From the NCBI GenBank assembly GCA_023251555.1, contig JAHEYN010000015.1:18288-74750 (forward strand): DNA of 56,463 bases, read 5' to 3'. The notes under the pieces are model-generated. The model was not told the DNA's origin. It ran no database searches and worked only from the letters and a program-made list of their open reading frames with translations. Origin of the DNA: Bacteroidota bacterium. GTDB lineage: Bacteria; Bacteroidota; Bacteroidia; AKYH767-A; JAHEYN01. Shown in pieces: positions 1-52,215 of this stretch. The position numbers and the translations under genes are program-made. Position 1 is the first letter of the stretch; each line of letters opens with the position of its first letter.

Positions 1-427
1 TTTCGAGGGAAAGTTTTTCATCAAGGATGATACCCGCCTGGGCGAGGATGAACTCGTAAGTATAGATGGGGCAGTTAAACCGGACCGCTATTGCAATGGC
101 ATCAGAAGTGCGTGCGTCTATCTCAATAGTTTTGGTGCCGTCAAATGAAACAAGTTTTGAATAAAAGATACCTTCAACCAGATTGTAAATGATTATTTCT
201 TTAATCTCTATCCCGAAGGACTGTGAAAAGTTTTTGAACAGGTCATGGGTAAGAGGGCGGCTGGGAGTCATCTTTTCCAGCTCAATGGCGATCGCCTGTG
301 CTTCAAACCCGCCGATGATGATGGGGAGCCTTCGTTTCCCTTCCGTTTCCCCGAGTACGAGGGCGTAAGCGCCGGTATGGGTCTGGCTGTATGAGAGTCC
401 GACAATATCTAATTTGACTTTTTCCAC
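1..427 (-). CDS. Bifunctional nuclease family protein (DUF151), 3' part cut by window edge
   Basis: About 142 codons are visible, reading leftward off the window edge, so the C-terminus is missing. The visible part matches the DUF151 (BFN) domain: a KLDIVGLSYSQTHTGAYALVL start, a RRLPIIIGGFEAQAIAIELE core, and a DARTSDAIAIAVRFNCPIY segment that is typical of the family. In Bacteroidota the DUF151 domain is usually followed by a short UVR domain, which would lie outside the window. The only plausible start is GTG at 427-425, since no in-frame ATG lies upstream. It follows etfA closely on the same strand and is probably the last gene of the etfB-etfA operon. Family members are described as having DNase and RNase activity, but the role in this organism is unknown. 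Confidence 0.85.
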   Translation of the reverse strand, partial: MEKVKLDIVGLSYSQTHTGAYALVLGETEGKRRLPIIIGGFEAQAIAIELEKMTPSRPLTHDLFKNFSQSFGIEIKEIIIYNLVEGIFYSKLVSFDGTKTIEIDARTSDAIAIAVRFNCPIYTYEFILAQAGIILDEKLSLE

Positions 428-476
428 CGGGCAATAGCTTACTCTAAAATACAGGTTTAAAGGTTAAGAAAAAAAA

Positions 477-1454
477 TCAGTGATGGGAGGCTTTAAAAGC
501 CTTAACGGCTTCAATAAGTTTTGGAACCACTTCAAAGGCATCCCCGGCAATACCATAATCTGCGGCTTTAAAAAAGGGGGCTTCGGGATCTTTGTTGATA
601 GCCACGATCACTTTGGAAGAATTGACTCCTGCGAGGTGCTGGATGGCGCCGGAGATACCGATGGCTATATAAAGATTGGGGCTGATGGCTTTCCCGGTCT
701 GGCCGACGTGTTCGTGGTGTGGCCTCCAGCCTATGTCGGCTACGGGTTTTGAACAGGCTGTGGCGGCCCCCAGTTCAGCTGCCAGTTCTTCTACCATGCC
801 CCAGTTTTCGGGTCCTTTCATGCCTCTGCCCGCAGAAACAACAATTTCAGCTTCGGTTACAGATACTTTCCCGGAAGATTTTACAATTTCCCCGGATACA
901 CTTCTGAAATCAGTGTCGGGAATGGCAGGATTATATGCTGTGATGGAAGGGGTTGCCGGCGATTTTATGATTGTAAACGAATTGGGGGCGACGGATAAAA
1001 TTTTCACAGGAGTATTACAGACCACTTCGGATAATGCTTTCCCGGAGAAGGATTTCTTTTTTACGGTGAACTTATCTCCTTTGGAGGGAAGCTGTATAAC
1101 ACCCGTTGCGAGTGACGCCTGGAGTTTCACCGCAAGGCGGGGCGCAACGGCTTTGCCGGTATAGGTGTTGGAGAGGACAACGACTTCCGCCCCTTCATCC
1201 TTTGCAGCCTGTGCGATCACTGAGGCATAGGCCTGGTTAACGAAGTTATTTAGCCTGGAGTCCGTAACACTCAGGATTTTTGACGCTCCGTACTCCCCGA
1301 GCTGTTTGAGGTCATCACCGGTAATGTTCCCGACAGAGATGGCGGTAGTGGTAGTTCCGAGGATCTTAGCAGTTTCATTCGCATAGGATACGGCCTCGAA
1401 GGCGGACTTTTTAAACTTGCCGTCTATGCTTTCTGCAAATACTAATACTGGCAT
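477..1454 (-). CDS. etfA: Electron transfer flavoprotein alpha subunit
   Basis: 325 residues, normal for ETF-alpha. The C-terminal FAD-binding domain is clear: GRGMKGPENWGMVEELA, then VGQTGKAISPNLYIAIGISG and QHLAG (about 250-276), then the KVIVAINKDPEAPFF signature (about 281-295). With EtfB it forms the soluble heterodimer that takes electrons from acyl-CoA and other flavin dehydrogenases and passes them to ETF:quinone oxidoreductase. It lies 21 bp downstream of etfB on the same strand, so the pair is surely co-transcribed. Confidence 0.97.
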   Translation of the reverse strand: MPVLVFAESIDGKFKKSAFEAVSYANETAKILGTTTTAISVGNITGDDLKQLGEYGASKILSVTDSRLNNFVNQAYASVIAQAAKDEGAEVVVLSNTYTGKAVAPRLAVKLQASLATGVIQLPSKGDKFTVKKKSFSGKALSEVVCNTPVKILSVAPNSFTIIKSPATPSITAYNPAIPDTDFRSVSGEIVKSSGKVSVTEAEIVVSAGRGMKGPENWGMVEELAAELGAATACSKPVADIGWRPHHEHVGQTGKAISPNLYIAIGISGAIQHLAGVNSSKVIVAINKDPEAPFFKAADYGIAGDAFEVVPKLIEAVKAFKASHH

Positions 1455-1475
1455 AAGAGATGGTTTTTATGTCTT

Positions 1476-2213
1476 TCAGATAATTTTTGCTTCGTTGTGC
1501 AGGAGGTCGATGAGGGCAGCGGGGTTATCGGCAGGAATCATTTTACAGGCTGCTTTTGCAGGCGGAAGTTCATATTTTTCATTAACAGTGAATGCCGGGC
1601 TGCCCTGGGGTTCTGTGACAGCAAGGGGTTTGGTGCGGGCGGACATAATTCCCCGCATGTTGGGTATGCGCGGTTCTGCCATTCCTTTCTGTGCCGAAGC
1701 AACAAAGGGGAGGGGTGTAGTTACAATTTCTTTTCCCCCGTCGATTTCTCTTTCAAGAGTAGCTGTAGTGCCGTCTATGGTAAGTTTTGTTGCAACTGAC
1801 ACAGAAGGGATGCCGAGCAGCTCTGCAATCATGCCGGGCACCTGAGATCCGTTGTAATCAATGCTTTCTTTTCCTGTGAGGATGATATCATACCCCCCCG
1901 TTTTTGCGACATGAGCAATCTGGGAGGCAACGAAATAGGCATCCGATGGATCCGCATTAACCCTGATGGCGTCATCGGCTCCTATTGCGAGTGCTTTCCG
2001 GATGTTGGCTTCCGTATCCGGTTTGCCGACATTGATAACAGTAACACTCCCTCCCAGGCTTTCTTTTAATTCAAGAGCGCGTGTCAGGGCGATTTCATCA
2101 TAAGGATTAATGATAAACTGCACGCCCGACGTGTTAAATGCTTTACCGTCAGGTGTGAAAGATATTCTGGCGGTGGTGTCGGGAACGTTGCTGATACATA
2201 CAAGAATTTTCAT
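1476..2213 (-). CDS. etfB: Electron transfer flavoprotein beta subunit
   Basis: 245 residues. The N-terminus MKILVCISNVPDTTARISF and the FIINPYDEIALTRALELKE segment (about 34-52) are typical of ETF-beta, followed by the adenine-nucleotide-binding Rossmann-like core (ALAIGADDAIRV). It is the partner of EtfA and holds AMP in the heterodimer. It is the first gene of the etfB-etfA-DUF151 operon. A TAACTTTG promoter box sits about 50 bp upstream of its ATG. Confidence 0.97.
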   Translation of the reverse strand: MKILVCISNVPDTTARISFTPDGKAFNTSGVQFIINPYDEIALTRALELKESLGGSVTVINVGKPDTEANIRKALAIGADDAIRVNADPSDAYFVASQIAHVAKTGGYDIILTGKESIDYNGSQVPGMIAELLGIPSVSVATKLTIDGTTATLEREIDGGKEIVTTPLPFVASAQKGMAEPRIPNMRGIMSARTKPLAVTEPQGSPAFTVNEKYELPPAKAACKMIPADNPAALIDLLHNEAKII

Positions 2214-2263
2214 CTGGAACGGAGTTTAATATTGACTGAAAGGGGGCTGTGGCAGAAGGCCTG

Positions 2264-2271
2264 CAAAGTTA
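2264..2271 (-). promoter_or_regulatory. Bacteroidota-type -7 box upstream of etfB
   Basis: On the minus strand this reads TAACTTTG, a full match to TAnnTTTG. It lies 50 bp upstream of the etfB start, giving a predicted leader of about 45 nt. The -33 element is weak: GTTG instead of TTTG, at a spacing of 23. Confidence 0.5.
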
Positions 2272-2344
2272 TTGAAATACCTCAGAATAAAAAACAACGG
2301 TTTTGCGGGGAAGCAGCAAAGAAACCGGAAATACAAGTCACCTT

Positions 2345-3016
2345 TTATATCATTCCCGGGCGCCTTTCTTTTGTGCGCCGGAGAGATTCTTCGTGCCTCC
2401 ATTTTTCAATTTCGGGGGTATTGCCTGAAAGCAGTATTTCAGGAACTTGCAGTCCTCTGAAGTCTGCCGGCCGCGTATAAACCGGGGGGGCTATCAGTCC
2501 GTCCTGGAAAGAGTCCGAGAGTGCGGATGTTTCATCCGAAATAGCCCCGGGCAGGAGCCTGATGATGGAATCGCAAAGGACGGCTGCCGGGAGTTCTCCC
2601 CCGGAGAGCACATAGTTTCCGATGGAAATTTCCCGGGTAACGAAATGTGTGCGCACCCTTTCGTCTATTCCTTTATAATGTCCGCAAAGGAGTATAATAT
2701 TATGCAGCATGGAAAGTTTGTTGGAGATCTGCTGGTCCAGCAGCTCCCCGTCAGGGCTGAGATAGATCACTTCATCATAATTCCTTTCAGAGCGGAGTTT
2801 ATCGATGCACCGTGCCACGGGTTCGATCATGAGTACCATGCCTGCGCCGCCGCCGTAGGGAGCATCATCCACGCTGCGGTGCTTATCAGTGGAATAATCA
2901 CGCAGGTTAATGACATTAATCTCTGCGACACCTTTTTGTATTGCACGTTTTACAATGGAATGTCCCAGCGGACTTTCAAGCAGCTGCGGGAGTGCGGATA
3001 TAATGTCAATGCGCAT
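2345..3016 (-). CDS. trmD: tRNA (guanine-37-N1)-methyltransferase
   Basis: 223 residues, the usual size for TrmD. It methylates G37 of tRNAs that read CNN codons, using S-adenosylmethionine. Family motifs are present in order: MRIDIISALPQLLESPLGHS at the N-terminus, DDAPYGGGAGMVL (50-62), CGHYKGIDERV (111-121) and SIGNYVLSGGELPA (131-144). The last two form the trefoil-knot cofactor pocket. The gene stands between etfB and the divergent biotin operon. Its 3' neighbour etfB appears to have its own promoter box. Confidence 0.97.
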   Translation of the reverse strand: MRIDIISALPQLLESPLGHSIVKRAIQKGVAEINVINLRDYSTDKHRSVDDAPYGGGAGMVLMIEPVARCIDKLRSERNYDEVIYLSPDGELLDQQISNKLSMLHNIILLCGHYKGIDERVRTHFVTREISIGNYVLSGGELPAAVLCDSIIRLLPGAISDETSALSDSFQDGLIAPPVYTRPADFRGLQVPEILLSGNTPEIEKWRHEESLRRTKERRPGMI

Positions 3017-3054
3017 TTTACATTTTTTCAGAATGCAAATATCAAACTTTGGAT

Positions 3055-3062
3055 TATCTTTG
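3055..3062 (+). promoter_or_regulatory. Promoter -7 box of the biotin operon
   Basis: TATCTTTG matches TAnnTTTG exactly and ends 24 bp before the bioB ATG. No good TTTG box is seen 19-21 bp upstream. The same 70-bp intergenic space must also hold the divergent trmD promoter. No biotin operator was recognised. Confidence 0.5.
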
Positions 3063-3086
3063 TCAAAAGCAAAAATCTGACATAGA

Positions 3087-4070
3087 ATGATACGTCATAA
3101 CTGGACAAAAGAGGAAATCCTTGACATCTACAATACACCCCTCCTTGACCTTGTTTACCGCGCTGCTTCCGTACACAGGGAGCACAATACATACGGAGAA
3201 GTTCAGGTAAGCAGCCTGCTTTCCATAAAAACAGGGGGATGTTCCGAAGACTGTTCATATTGCCCGCAGTCGGCTAAATACCATACGGATATTGATATTC
3301 ATGCCCTTGTTTCCACGGAAGAAGTGGTTACTGCAGCGATGAAAGCGAAAGAAGGGGGGGCTTCCCGCCTGTGCATGGGTGCTGCCTGGAGGGAGGTGCG
3401 GGACAACAGGGACTTTGACCGTATCCTTGAGATGGTAAAAGCTGTTGCAGAGATGGATATGGAGGTGTGCTGCACACTCGGAATGATCAATGAAAGCCAG
3501 GCAAAAAAACTTGCTGATGCCGGGTTGTATGCATACAATCACAACCTTGATTCCTCTGAAGATTTTTATAAAAAAATTATCAGCACAAGAAGTTATGCCG
3601 ATCGCCTTCAAACTCTTGGCCATGTGCGGAAAGCGGGACTTTCTGTTTGCTGCGGCGGTATTATCGGCATGGGCGAGAGTGCGGAAGACCGTGCATCCAT
3701 GCTGCAGGTTTTGTCGGCCATGAATCCTCACCCGGAATCTGTTCCGGTCAATGCCCTGGTACCCGTAAAAGGGACTCCCCTCGAAAGCAACGAAAAGATT
3801 TCCACCTGGGAGATGGTGCGCATGATAGCCACTGTGCGTATTGTCCTTCCCGCTTCTGCCGTCCGCCTTTCGGCAGGGAGAACGGAAATGAGCACCGAAG
3901 CTCAGGCCCTGTGTTTCATGGCGGGCGCAAACTCTGTTTTCGCAGGCGATAAACTGCTTACTACTCCCAATCCTGCTTTTAACGAAGACCTTGAGATGTT
4001 CACGGTACTCGGGCTGAAGCCTATGCAGGCATACAGCAAAGCGAAAAAAGAATCAGGCATTCCTGCCTGA
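3087..4070 (+). CDS. bioB: Biotin synthase
   Basis: 327 residues. Radical-SAM enzyme that inserts sulfur into dethiobiotin, the last step of biotin synthesis. The CxxxCxxC cluster motif is C52, C56 and C59 within GCSEDCSYCPQ, and these cysteines bind the 4Fe-4S cluster. The downstream RLSAGRTEMS segment carries the arginine typical of the 2Fe-2S site. The N-terminus MIRHNWTKEEILDIYNTPL fits full-length family members, so the ATG at 3087 is preferred. It is the first gene of bioB-F-D-A. Confidence 0.98.
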   Translation: MIRHNWTKEEILDIYNTPLLDLVYRAASVHREHNTYGEVQVSSLLSIKTGGCSEDCSYCPQSAKYHTDIDIHALVSTEEVVTAAMKAKEGGASRLCMGAAWREVRDNRDFDRILEMVKAVAEMDMEVCCTLGMINESQAKKLADAGLYAYNHNLDSSEDFYKKIISTRSYADRLQTLGHVRKAGLSVCCGGIIGMGESAEDRASMLQVLSAMNPHPESVPVNALVPVKGTPLESNEKISTWEMVRMIATVRIVLPASAVRLSAGRTEMSTEAQALCFMAGANSVFAGDKLLTTPNPAFNEDLEMFTVLGLKPMQAYSKAKKESGIPA

Positions 4071-4090
4071 TTCCATTCCCGGGCAGAGCC

Positions 4091-5224
4091 ATGTATCCTG
4101 TTGAGCATCACCTGTATGAAGCATTGAGCAGGAGGAAGAACGACGACTCTCTCCGGGTGCTTCCGGCAGGCAGGGATCTTATTGATTTCTGTTCCAACGA
4201 TTACCTCGGGTATGCAAGAGATAAAGATTTATGGAGGTCTGTTGTTTCTGAAATCTCCGCGCAGGCACACAAAAACATTTCCGGCTCCTCGGGTTCCCGC
4301 CTCCTGGGGGGCAACAGTATGTACGCCGAAGACCTTGAGCAATATATAGCATCTTTTCACGGTGCCGAATCTGCTTTGTTATACAATTCAGGCTATGATG
4401 CCAATACCGGTTTTTTTTCCTGTGTTCCGCAGAAGGGCGACACGGTTATCTATGATGAACTTATACATGCTTCGGTCCGGGATGGAATGAGGCTGGGTGC
4501 GGCTCAGAGTTTCCCCTTTTTTCACAATGATATCGCCCACCTCGAAAAGCGCCTGCGGTCGGGTTCCGGTAATGTTTTTATTGCAGTGGAATCTGTTTAC
4601 TCAATGGATGGCGACTACGCTCCCCTGAAAAAGATTGCGGCCATAGCCCGTAAATACAAATCTCATCTGTTTGTTGACGAGGCGCATGCCACGGGGCTCA
4701 TGGGCCCCGGGGGTGCAGGAATGGTTCAGTCTCTCGGGCTGGAGGATAAGGTGTTTGCGAGGGTTCATACATTCGGTAAGGCGCTCGGGACGCATGGCGC
4801 AGCGATACTGGGATCCCCGGTACTGAAAAAATATCTTCTTAATTTTTCCCGGCAGTTCATCTATACCACGGCTCTCCCGCTGCATAACCTTGCGGGGATC
4901 AGGTGCGCCTATGAAAAGCTGCGAAAGGAGTACAGCAGATACGGCAGGATTAATGAGCTGGTAAGCATGTTCAGGAAAGAATCCGGTTCGCTTCCGGGTA
5001 TGCATCTCCCTGACAGCGGCAGCCCCATACAGAGTGTTATCCTGAAAGGAAATACGTATGTCCGTTCTGTTGCAAAAAGAGTTCAAAAGAGGGGGTATGA
5101 TGTGCGGGCTGTCCTGAGTCCCACGGTGGCGAAAGGGAAAGAGCGGCTGAGAATCATTATTCATCTTTTCAATACTGAAACGGAAATCAAAGGCCTGGTA
5201 AAAGCTATTGGCGAAAGTCTGTGA
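4091..5224 (+). CDS. bioF: 8-amino-7-oxononanoate synthase
   Basis: 377 residues, alpha-oxoamine synthase family. Condenses pimeloyl-thioester with alanine to 8-amino-7-oxononanoate, using PLP. Visible motifs are NDYLGYA near residue 37, SGSSGSRLLGGN, VDEAHATGLMG and the PLP lysine K230 in HTFGKALGTHG. It starts 20 bp after bioB, and its TGA overlaps the GTG start of bioD, so coupling is likely. A close relative such as 2-amino-3-ketobutyrate ligase is possible by sequence alone, but the biotin neighbours settle it. Confidence 0.95.
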   Translation: MYPVEHHLYEALSRRKNDDSLRVLPAGRDLIDFCSNDYLGYARDKDLWRSVVSEISAQAHKNISGSSGSRLLGGNSMYAEDLEQYIASFHGAESALLYNSGYDANTGFFSCVPQKGDTVIYDELIHASVRDGMRLGAAQSFPFFHNDIAHLEKRLRSGSGNVFIAVESVYSMDGDYAPLKKIAAIARKYKSHLFVDEAHATGLMGPGGAGMVQSLGLEDKVFARVHTFGKALGTHGAAILGSPVLKKYLLNFSRQFIYTTALPLHNLAGIRCAYEKLRKEYSRYGRINELVSMFRKESGSLPGMHLPDSGSPIQSVILKGNTYVRSVAKRVQKRGYDVRAVLSPTVAKGKERLRIIIHLFNTETEIKGLVKAIGESL

Positions 5225-48591: not shown

Positions 48592-49470
48592 ATGAAAGCA
48601 TATATCTTCCCCGGCCAGGGCTCCCAGTTTCCCGGAATGGGAAAAGATCTTTATGAAAGTTCTCCTCTTGCCAAGGATCTGTTTGAAAAGGCAAATGAGC
48701 TTGTTGGATTCCGGATTACCGATGTGATGTTTGGAGGAACCGAAGAAGACCTTAAGCAGACCAGGGTTACACAACCTGCAATCTTCCTTCATTCTGTCAT
48801 TCTTTCCCTGACGATGGGGGATAATTTCAGGCCTGATATGGTTGCAGGACATTCCCTTGGGGAGTTTTCTGCCCTTGTTGCAAACAAAACCCTTTCTTTT
48901 GAAGATGCGCTGCTTCTGGTGGTGAAAAGAGCAAATGCCATGCAGAAAGCCTGTGAAATCCGCCCGTCCACTATGGCCGCAGTGCTTGGAATGGATGATA
49001 AAAAAGCTGAAGAAATCTGCGCATCGGTTACCGGGGAGGTCGTGGTTCCTGCGAATTACAATTGTCCGGGACAGCTTGTTATTTCGGGGAGCGTGGATGG
49101 GGTAAAAATTGCCTGTGAAAAACTTATTGCGGCAGGTGCCAAACGGGCCATACTGCTGAATGTGGGTGGCGCCTTCCACTCCCCGCTCATGGAGCCGGCC
49201 CGCGTGGAGCTTGAGGCGGCTATTCTTGCAACGAAATTCATCCCGCCCGTATGTCCTGTTTACCAGAATGTAAATGCAAGTGCAGTAACAGATCCTGCCT
49301 CCATACAGAAAAACCTTGTTGCCCAGCTTACTGCCCCCGTGAGGTGGACAGAAACGATACTGAATATGATTGCCGGCGGAGCATCTTCTTTTACTGAAAC
49401 CGGGCCGGGGAAGGTGTTGCAGGGGCTCGTAAAAAAAATCAGCAAGAATGCCGTGATTGCTGGTTCATGA
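48592..49470 (+). CDS. fabD: Malonyl-CoA:ACP transacylase
   Basis: 292 residues. Loads malonate from CoA to acyl carrier protein for fatty-acid synthesis. The N-terminal FPGQGSQFPGMGKDLY, the catalytic S88 in AGHSLGEFSAL, the malonate-binding arginine in VVKRANAMQ, and GGAFHSPLM with the active-site His are all in place. It stands alone, not in a fab cluster. Confidence 0.97.
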   Translation: MKAYIFPGQGSQFPGMGKDLYESSPLAKDLFEKANELVGFRITDVMFGGTEEDLKQTRVTQPAIFLHSVILSLTMGDNFRPDMVAGHSLGEFSALVANKTLSFEDALLLVVKRANAMQKACEIRPSTMAAVLGMDDKKAEEICASVTGEVVVPANYNCPGQLVISGSVDGVKIACEKLIAAGAKRAILLNVGGAFHSPLMEPARVELEAAILATKFIPPVCPVYQNVNASAVTDPASIQKNLVAQLTAPVRWTETILNMIAGGASSFTETGPGKVLQGLVKKISKNAVIAGS

Positions 49471-49587
49471 AGCTAGCCCTTATCTTTTTCTCCATTAATG
49501 TGGAAGCATAAATTTCCTTGCATTACAGAGGTATTTTCGGCGGCAAATGTCTTTCCAGCAAAGGCTTTATATCAGATAAAAGCGGTT

Positions 49588-49618
49588 TTTGGATAATAAT
49601 TTCCTTTAACTATATTTG
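49588..49618 (+). promoter_or_regulatory. Bacteroidota promoter of the lipoprotein cluster
   Basis: TTTG at 49588-49591, a 19-bp spacer, and TATATTTG at 49611-49618. This is the consensus TTTG-N19-TAnnTTTG and the best promoter seen in the window. The ATG is at 49666, giving a leader of about 43 nt. Confidence 0.75.
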
Positions 49619-49665
49619 CAAATCATTCTCCGGTATTAAGTTTTAAAACTTAAATAAAAAACAAA

Positions 49666-50565
49666 ATGTATTTTAAGAACAAATTTTATCTGACGGGCCT
49701 TATTGGAGTTGCATTTCTTGCAATTGCCGGCTGCAATTCCCAAAGCACAAAAAAGGAAGAGCCTGCTGTGGCCGATGAACAGGACTCAACCTCTGAACAG
49801 ATCGCCAAAGTTAAAAAGGTGTTTTACACTGTTCCTTCCCCTGTACAGGCCACTGCCCTGCTTAAAAAATCAGGAGCAAAATATGCCAGGGAAATATTAA
49901 ATGCCACGGCCAATGTTTCCAGGTACACCACTAACTATGATAAAGCCATGAATCTTGGGGTATATGGAACGGATTTGGCATATACAAATATATTCAACCA
50001 GACACAGGAAGCAATAAATTACCTTGCGGTAGTGAACAAACTTGCCGGGGGGCTGGGGATGTCCAACATGATTGAAAACCTTGATATCTCCAAGCGTTTC
50101 CAGGCCAATATTAATAACAGGGATTCCCTGGTTGATATCATCTCTGACATTTTCCGCGAATCTGATGATTACCTGAAGGAAAACCAGCAGTATCACTCAG
50201 CAGCTCTTGTGCTGGTGGGCGGATGGATTGAAGGTCTATACATCGCCATAAAGCAATCAAAGAAGAACCCGAGCAAGGAAATTTCCGATCGTATCGCCGA
50301 GCAGAAATACTCTCTCAGGAACCTGCTTTCCCTGATTGATGAGTATAAGAACGAGAAAGATTTCGCTGAACTTATAACCAGCCTTACCGATCTTAAGCAG
50401 ACGTACGACGGTATTGTAACGGACCGCACTGAAAAAGCTCCTTCCATTGACACAGCCGGTAAGGTTACCACGATCAATACCACCAGTAAGATTTCCATCA
50501 CGGATGATCAGATGAAGGAAATTACTTCCAAAATAGAGGCTCTCAGAAATAAAATCATTAAATAA
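49666..50565 (+). CDS. Lipoprotein of unknown function
   Basis: 299 residues. The signal peptide has a lipobox LAIAGC, with the lipidated cysteine at residue 23 followed by NSQS. The mature part is soluble, mostly helical and charged (KKVFYTVPSPVQATALLKKS, YGTDLAYTNIFNQTQEAINY, LVGGWIEGLYIAIKQSKK, ending KIEALRNKIIK). I do not recognise a named family. It is followed 8 bp later by a small secreted protein and then by a Cys/His/Met-rich membrane protein, so the three likely work together in the envelope. Confidence 0.85.
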   Translation: MYFKNKFYLTGLIGVAFLAIAGCNSQSTKKEEPAVADEQDSTSEQIAKVKKVFYTVPSPVQATALLKKSGAKYAREILNATANVSRYTTNYDKAMNLGVYGTDLAYTNIFNQTQEAINYLAVVNKLAGGLGMSNMIENLDISKRFQANINNRDSLVDIISDIFRESDDYLKENQQYHSAALVLVGGWIEGLYIAIKQSKKNPSKEISDRIAEQKYSLRNLLSLIDEYKNEKDFAELITSLTDLKQTYDGIVTDRTEKAPSIDTAGKVTTINTTSKISITDDQMKEITSKIEALRNKIIK

Positions 50566-50573
50566 CTTTTACA

Positions 50574-51026
50574 ATGAAGAAGATCATAAGAATTTCGGCC
50601 CTGTGTGCATTAGTTGTACTTGCCTTTACCACTAAACTTTCATTTTCCCAGTGCAAGGGTGTGGCAAAGAAGTGCCTTCCGGACATGAAGCCCTTTGTAT
50701 ATACGGGGCAACTGAACAGTACCATCCTGAACGAGGGTGAATCTGCGGAACTTGTTATGACCTTTACTGCCGGCCAGGAATACAGAATTCTTACCTGTGC
50801 TCCTGTTTACCTCGGGATTCTCAAGTTTTCCATTTACGACAGCAACAGGAAACTTGTTTTCAATAATAAGGATTTCAATAATTCGCAATACTGGGATCTC
50901 AAGGTGGGTTCCACGGAGGATTATACCATCCAGGTTTCTGTTCCATATGCCAAGCACCAGAAGGTTGCGGATATCAGCGGTAGCGGCTGCGTGGCGGTGC
51001 TGGTTGGGTTTAAGAACGATGAGTAA
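50574..51026 (+). CDS. Small secreted protein of unknown function
   Basis: 150 residues. Signal peptide 1-26 (ALCALVVLAFTTKLSFS, then Q). The mature part carries four cysteines (CKGVAKKC at the start, then one in ILTCAPVY and one in SGSGCVAVL) and reads as a beta-sandwich (AELVMTFTAGQEYRILTC, FSIYDSNRKLVFNN, STEDYTIQVSVPYA). It resembles bacterial pre-peptidase-type beta domains, but no function is known. Confidence 0.82.
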   Translation: MKKIIRISALCALVVLAFTTKLSFSQCKGVAKKCLPDMKPFVYTGQLNSTILNEGESAELVMTFTAGQEYRILTCAPVYLGILKFSIYDSNRKLVFNNKDFNNSQYWDLKVGSTEDYTIQVSVPYAKHQKVADISGSGCVAVLVGFKNDE

Positions 51027-51049
51027 CAACTGACTTTAAAATTTACACT

Positions 51050-51460
51050 ATGATTATGTTTTCACTTTCTGCTTCGCTTATAGCGCTTGTTGCCGGCATG
51101 TTCCTTCTTATTAAAGTAAGAAAAGAAAATCTTGGCGGTATGTATAAATACATCTCCTACTTTGTAATTGTATTTGCCCTTCTTTCTTTCCTGTGTGTTT
51201 TCTCACAGGGTGTGTTCAGGATTAGCTGTAAACGAGGATCCGGTGGTGGGCATGGCAAGTGTATGATGATGCACCGTGGCGGGTGCAGTGGTGAGGATAG
51301 GGGATGCTGCCATCGCGGTGGTCATGTGGGCATGGGGGAAGAAGGCATGCAATGTCCTCATGCAGGAATGAAAGAGTGCCATATGAAAGAAGCAGGGGAA
51401 AAGCATGAGCATGAAGGTGAGGAGGCTCCAACTCCCAAGCCGGAAGATTCTAAGAAGTAG
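51050..51460 (+). CDS. Membrane protein with Cys/His/Met-rich tail
   Basis: 136 residues; starts at 51050 or 51056 are both possible. Two membrane segments (about 6-22 and 33-53) are followed by a soluble tail packed with potential metal ligands: C60, H68, C71, M72-74, H75, C79, C86, C87, H88, H92, C102, H104, C110, H111, M112, H119 and H121, then an acidic Pro-rich end. Such tails bind Cu, Zn or Ni in other proteins. No known family was recognised. It is in line with the two preceding envelope genes. Confidence 0.82.
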   Translation: MIMFSLSASLIALVAGMFLLIKVRKENLGGMYKYISYFVIVFALLSFLCVFSQGVFRISCKRGSGGGHGKCMMMHRGGCSGEDRGCCHRGGHVGMGEEGMQCPHAGMKECHMKEAGEKHEHEGEEAPTPKPEDSKK

Positions 51461-51465
51461 AATCG

Positions 51466-52215
51466 TTATAATTTCCCGTTGAGCAGTTTCCCCGAGTTCA
51501 GCAGTTTCCCGAGATAATTTTCCTGTAGTGTTTTTTTAAGAACGCCGATGTGTTTCGTGCTGTGAGCATCGGTTCCAAGCAAATCCACCATCCCGTTGTC
51601 TATCAACTTCTCGGCAATCTTTTTAGTGGCAGGGGAGTAATAGCCTGAGATGGAGTTGATGTTCAGCTGAAACAAAACACCCTGGTCTTTCAGGCTGATG
51701 TAGTTATCAAAATTTCCGTACCAGAAAGGGTAGCGTTCAGGATGTGCGAGGACTGGAGTATAGCCATTAATCTGCATTTCAAAAATCATCTCTTTCAGAT
51801 TGTCCGGCTTGTTGATATAAGACACTTCGAAAAGTAGATAATTTTCACCGAAGGTCAGGAGATTTTTTCTTTTCAGTTTTTCCTCAAACCCATCATCAAG
51901 ATAGTATTCTGCTGCTGCCTCTATGGTTACCGGAAGCCCGTTTCCGGCAACGGCTTCTTTCAGTTTTTTCAGGCCTTCCATGACAACTTCGGGTGTGTTT
52001 TTGTAGAAGTCATTCATGATGTGCGGGGTGGTAATGAGTTTCCTGAAACCGAGATGATACAGGTCTTTCACCAGCCCGAGCGAATCTTCTATCGTTTGGG
52101 CCCCGTCGTCTATACCAGGAATAAGATGAGAATGCATATCAGTGTGCAGTCCTGAAAAATCATTCAGGTTGTTTTGCCTGCTTCTCCCGAAAAGATTTCC
52201 AAACAGGGGCTTCAA
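51466..52215 (-). CDS. CpsB/YwqE-type PHP-domain tyrosine phosphatase
   Basis: 249 residues. The PHP metal-binding motif DMHSHLIPGIDDGAQT lies at about 26-41, followed by ITTPHIMNDFYKN, PVLAHPERYPFWYG and LLGTDAHST, all supplying His/Asp ligands. Members remove phosphate from the tyrosine tails of BY-kinases. The Wzc-like kinase at 35545-37914 is the obvious partner. The gene ends the minus-strand sugar operon and overlaps the epimerase gene by 4 bp. Confidence 0.92.
   Translation of the reverse strand: MKPLFGNLFGRSRQNNLNDFSGLHTDMHSHLIPGIDDGAQTIEDSLGLVKDLYHLGFRKLITTPHIMNDFYKNTPEVVMEGLKKLKEAVAGNGLPVTIEAAAEYYLDDGFEEKLKRKNLLTFGENYLLFEVSYINKPDNLKEMIFEMQINGYTPVLAHPERYPFWYGNFDNYISLKDQGVLFQLNINSISGYYSPATKKIAEKLIDNGMVDLLGTDAHSTKHIGVLKKTLQENYLGKLLNSGKLLNGKL

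Follow-up and report, generated by a model that had tools for sequence, protein, structure and literature searches.

Half transporters of the ABCG/White type (TIGR00955) carry an ATPase (PF00005) followed by an ABC-2 membrane domain (PF01061) on one chain, and the same arrangement is found in an ABC exporter that lies beside a pair of envelope genes, here termed L and S, in many relatives of the bacterium considered here. Unlike the ABCG/White-type transporters, the linked exporter has a TerB-like N-terminal part (below the Pfam cutoff) and is linked to L and S. Two further sets of described proteins are relevant to the products of the pair. The periplasmic metal-binding proteins of the EfeO/Algp7/imelysin-like group, among which EfeO/imelysin-like members have an HxxE metal motif, are helical like L, and the GOLD domain of p24/TMED proteins and the PPC/collagen-binding domains share a predicted beta sandwich with S. 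The exporter, the lipoprotein and the GOLD/PPC-like sandwich each resemble known kinds, and no description of their combination was found in open-access papers.

The window, by which is meant the whole stretch of 56,463 nucleotides that was analyzed (contig JAHEYN010000015.1, positions 18,288 to 74,750, of assembly GCA_023251555.1), holds one L-S pair followed by a third small gene, M. L (49666-50565, forward strand) encodes 299 amino acids with a lipobox cysteine at position 23 and belongs to the exporter-associated lipoprotein family; S (50574-51026, forward) encodes 150 amino acids with a signal-peptide-like start and four cysteines after it; M (51050-51460, forward) encodes 136 amino acids with two hydrophobic segments and a Cys/His/Met-rich tail. 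The N termini of L and S were both judged by eye to be of the Sec type. The three ORFs are separated by gaps of 8 (L/S) and 23 (S/M) bases, a spacing that suggests possible co-transcription. Upstream lies fabD (48592-49470, forward; above the cutoff of TIGR00128), and downstream a convergent CpsB/CapC-type gene (cpsB; 51466-52215, reverse; PF19567) terminates 5 bases past M. A sequence-only reading of this region had described a lipoprotein, a four-cysteine secreted protein and a membrane protein, none with a name it recognized, and these descriptions of L and S hold, as both are real ORFs with the expected features. For L, S and M alike, searches of Pfam and NCBIfam returned only sub-cutoff matches, and when the family alignments were compared with profiles the matches were scattered and weak, with only ArlS_N (for S) being frequent.

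A scan of named genomes with the L alignment confirmed at least 546 relatives, of which the best 80 were analyzed as loci, a sample that therefore favors pair-type L. By title, 79 of these are Bacteroidota MAGs, and the remaining one (L142) reads Saccharibacteria and is suspected to be mislabeled. Among these best 80 of at least 546, S is found downstream of L in 78, the two exceptions (L118 and L124) being cut by a contig end. Across 100 relatives, the L family is present in 55 genomes and S in 38, all 38 of which have L when the per-genome tables are compared. Among the L matches listed for these genomes, 81 of the 88 S rows have L within 700 bases upstream. Conversely, 69 of 150 L rows, among the matches listed and with contig ends included, lack an S within 700 bases, 18 of them being of the L-exporter type and 51 L alone. 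As S is nearly always near L while many L genes occur without S, S depends on L for company and L exists without S. The earlier reading had named a lack of co-occurrence in relatives as what would refute it; L and S do co-occur, and M does not, as it adjoins S in only 2 of 25 M genes in the 100 relatives (own genome and G001). In a sample of 148 genomes from across the phylum, own genome included, S was detected in four (two of them weakly, at E about 1e-6), the exporter in four at E 1e-120 and M in one, the own genome itself; the L-S/exporter system is patchy across this sample. A search of plasmids with L returned nothing at E 1e-5. Two loci (L125 and L130) carry tandem double L-S pairs, in which the first and second L copies form separate groups in the L tree, and this suggests an old duplication.

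The exporter follows L-S in 49 of the same 80 loci, as the next gene in 41 and as the next but one in 8, where another small secreted protein intervenes. This ABC protein is 1019-1035 residues long and is split between two ORFs in L159 and L169. In the exporter of L097, ABC_tran (PF00005) spans residues 265-416 and ABC2_membrane (PF01061) residues 565-757, with the TerB match remaining sub-threshold. The best NCBIfam alignment is to the White-type model TIGR00955 (residues 260-802), though at 250.4 bits for the L097 exporter and 264.1 bits for the exporter on contig C42 of the own genome, both fall short of the curated cutoff of 736.35 bits. At E 1e-120, the exporter is present in 52 of the 100 relatives, and all 52 are among the 55 genomes with L (per-genome tables compared); the three L genomes lacking it at this threshold are G063, G086 and G092, the last of which is 72% complete. 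Counted among the matches listed, the overlap is 50 of 52 genomes (Fisher p 3e-22, kinship ignored). At the level of individual genes the linkage is partial. With contig ends included, an exporter lies within 1.8 kb downstream of 28 of 81 L-S rows among the matches listed in the 100 relatives. Of the 65 exporter genes, 46 are preceded within 1.8 kb by a listed L (28 with S as well and 18 with no listed S near), leaving 19 without one.

Within the own genome there are six L matches, four of which are among the matches listed: the window copy, one each on contigs C47 and C42, and a lone L on C36. On C47 (L177, about 1-4971), L, S and the exporter occur in order on a contig of 6479 bases, the end of which cuts the exporter, and a same-strand ABC ATPase (Pfam ABC_tran; LolD-like by eye) lies upstream. 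On C42 (L179, 742-5143), L is followed by the exporter with no S found, and a SiaC-family gene is located upstream. The SiaC family (PF09345) occurs beside 5 of the 49 exporter loci in addition to C42, making it a minority neighbor, and is absent beside the window copy. In 13 of the 80 loci S is followed by a further small secreted protein (157-170 amino acids), which precedes the exporter in 8 (examples are L150, 7439-7918; L156, 3026-3532; and L154, 7412-7924); a Pfam scan of two of these proteins gave nothing at E 1.

The predicted structure of L (AF2 model from 73 sequences; mean pLDDT 85.7) consists of helices and a beta hairpin at the C terminus, and the lipobox Cys23 occurs in 99% of the 73 rows. 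A fold search with this model returned nothing significant (best VIA row Z 7.0), and a comparison with the sequences of solved structures gave a single match, at E 0.17. Structural rows to EfeO-like metal proteins were weak, at Z 4.5-5.7 (Foldseek E 0.6 or worse), values that helical bundles commonly give and that designed bundles also reached. In contrast to the EfeO/Algp7/imelysin-like proteins, L has no conserved histidine and does not match the HxxE motif. Excepting the lipobox cysteine, no His or Cys column reaches 30% in the 73 rows, and none of the 73 members has an EfeO/imelysin-like Pfam match at E 0.01, such that an assignment of L to these metal proteins is unsupported. An assignment to the SLATT defense effectors was rejected, since only sub-cutoff matches were obtained (E 0.006 in one search; E 1.1e-4 in another, where 21.9 bits compare with a cutoff of 100) and just 1 of 73 members has a Pfam match at E 0.01.

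For S, the AF2 model (76 sequences; mean pLDDT 89.1) is predicted to be a GOLD/PPC-like beta sandwich, with several sandwich families tied. The closest structural row is the TMED1 GOLD domain (Z 9.8, rmsd 2.8, 96 aligned). It heads a set of largely tied rows, at Z 9.8-8.8, that contains, besides GOLD domains, the C-terminal domains of subtilases, collagen-binding domains and a single channel domain. In Foldseek the top row is PliG, a lysozyme inhibitor (E 1e-5). Sequence identity to the GOLD/PPC domains is 4-24% in the rows shown and, compared with them, S is stand-alone, secreted and possesses its own cysteine pairs. None of the 76 members has a GOLD or PPC Pfam match at E 0.1, and the only match to a sequence of a solved structure is at E 0.4. 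The most frequent Pfam match, to ArlS_N, occurs in 20 of 76 members with a best E of 0.014, leaving an ArlS_N-type sensor domain as a weak candidate for S. Cysteines 27 and 139 are jointly present in 60 of the 76 rows and jointly absent in 16, and neither ever occurs singly. The cysteine near position 34 and Cys75 occur together in 68 rows, are missing together from 2 and appear one without the other in 6, and a fifth cysteine (117) occurs in 41 of 76 rows. The coupling of most of this variation into two pairs fits two disulfides better than a metal site, and S is probably disulfide-bonded.

Considered together, the three genes may be best explained as a juxtaposition, in which L and S would be envelope partners of an undescribed exporter and M a separate gene for a probable metal binder; we hold this reading with even confidence, as likely right as wrong. 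Under the juxtaposition reading, L would be lipid-anchored and helical and S secreted and disulfide-bonded, with both located outside the inner membrane, where they could take over the substrate of the TerB-ABC-ABC2 (ABCG-like) exporter or present it, as adaptor and acceptor. The L-S copy in the window would then be a satellite pair whose exporter is the one encoded on C47 or the one on C42. More tentatively, and on balance doubtfully, L, S and the TerB-ABC-ABC2 protein could constitute an undescribed export machine of the Bacteroidia, with L and S as its cargo-handling partners and extra L-S pairs, such as that of the window, providing alternative cargo specificities. The exporter, for which open-access papers gave neither a name nor a description, occurs with its dedicated lipoprotein family in 52 of the 100 sampled relatives and, if the proposal is true, a role would be assigned to three families that have no annotation.

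An alternative, which we consider unlikely, is that the exporter carries S, or L and S together, as cargo, or that they form a binding pair displayed at the surface, as opposed to being parts of a machine. The resemblance of the S model to GOLD, PPC and collagen-binding domains, often ligand binders, would be consistent with this alternative, as would the 53 of 81 L-S pairs (relatives, among the matches listed) without a neighboring exporter. Against it stand the Sec-type N termini judged by eye for both proteins and the 18 of 65 exporter genes that have L with no listed S near, the latter as expected of a machine part. Less probable again, and quite improbable, is that the linkage of L-S and the exporter reflects inherited gene order only, with no functional partnership. 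In the tree of 84 L proteins, in which some rows are long-branched and 19 inner branches are open, the exporter-less pairs are scattered among the exporter-linked ones with 8 label changes, compared with 26 in shuffles, as inheritance would have it, while the occurrence of L in every one of the 52 exporter genomes, kinship ignored, argues for a partnership. The same tree places the window copy beside the corresponding L of the second genome in the family (100/99).

The tail of M (residues 58-136) contains 7 Cys, 8 His and 7 Met; the metal-ligand-rich tail after two helices proposed earlier is confirmed in composition, though it measures 79 residues and not 60. Cys, His and Met make up 28% of the tail, compared with 5.7% in the window ORFs of at least 250 amino acids (binomial P 3e-10). 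All 15 aligned rows of the M family, the window included, are enriched in these three residues (17-39%), with one row lacking Cys and one lacking Met, and across the family the tail is ligand-rich and poorly aligned. Binding of metal ions by the tail is plausible on this composition. Lysine and arginine number 2-4 in the loop and 0-5 after the second helix, counts that do not discriminate between the two sides of the membrane as the location of the tail. Nothing related to an M-like protein was found in the open-access literature.

M is independent of L and S in its gene neighborhood. A profile of M homologues detects M in 21 of the 100 relatives at E 0.001, with some of the 21 genomes having supplied sequences to the profile, and M is present in 9 of the 42 genomes of the order. 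In seven of these nine, M adjoins fabD or cpsB, five of them without L-S: M lies beside fabD in G005 and G008, beside cpsB in G017 and G027, and beside both in G011, and in G019 and G020 it is located elsewhere. In G000 and G001, L-S lies between fabD and M, with cpsB after M. As the full order fabD-M-cpsB without L-S is complete only in G011, an ancestral block into which L-S was inserted is the simplest reading and not proof. The L-S pair may thus have come between fabD and M within the family, M being a gene of the fabD/cpsB neighborhood whose tail would probably bind metal ions independently of L-S. M-family genes at L065, L070, L072 and L078 have unrelated neighbors (ferredoxin, recombinase-like and others by eye) with no visible common theme.

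The least probable reading is the one first put forward for this region, that L, S and M form a three-gene metal cassette that jointly binds, buffers or senses Cu, Zn or Ni at the envelope; the shared strand, close spacing and ligand-rich tail of M, the preservation of the trio in the two genomes sampled from the family (G000 and G001) and a weak co-occurrence of M with S (13 of the 21 genomes carrying M, p 0.02) and with L (16 of these 21, p 0.03), uncorrected and counted among the matches listed, speak for it, yet it is very unlikely given the rarity of M beside S, the five genomes of the order with M by fabD or cpsB without L-S, the lack of conserved His or Cys in L beyond the lipobox, the largely paired cysteines of S, and the absence of any recognized metal transporter beside M homologues, as judged by the first residues of the neighbors only. 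Reading the function of the neighbors of M from its metal-ligand-rich tail is a tempting error.

The consensus promoter proposed upstream of L persists as a pattern match only: a Bacteroidota-type sequence, TTTG-N19-TAnnTTTG (49588-49618, forward), ends 47 bases before the L start. In PMC9723704, TAnnTTTG is given as the sigma-A -7 box. The pattern TTTG-N17..21-TAnnTTTG has this single match in the whole window with both strands scanned, compared with a chance mean of 1.70 per window, and therefore only its position supports the match. A looser pattern starting with TTG has four matches in the window, three on the forward strand and one on the reverse. A sigma-70 scan returned 3 sites (4.6 in shuffles), and a terminator scan also returned 3 (2.1 in shuffles), including a hairpin at 49459-49477 just after fabD.
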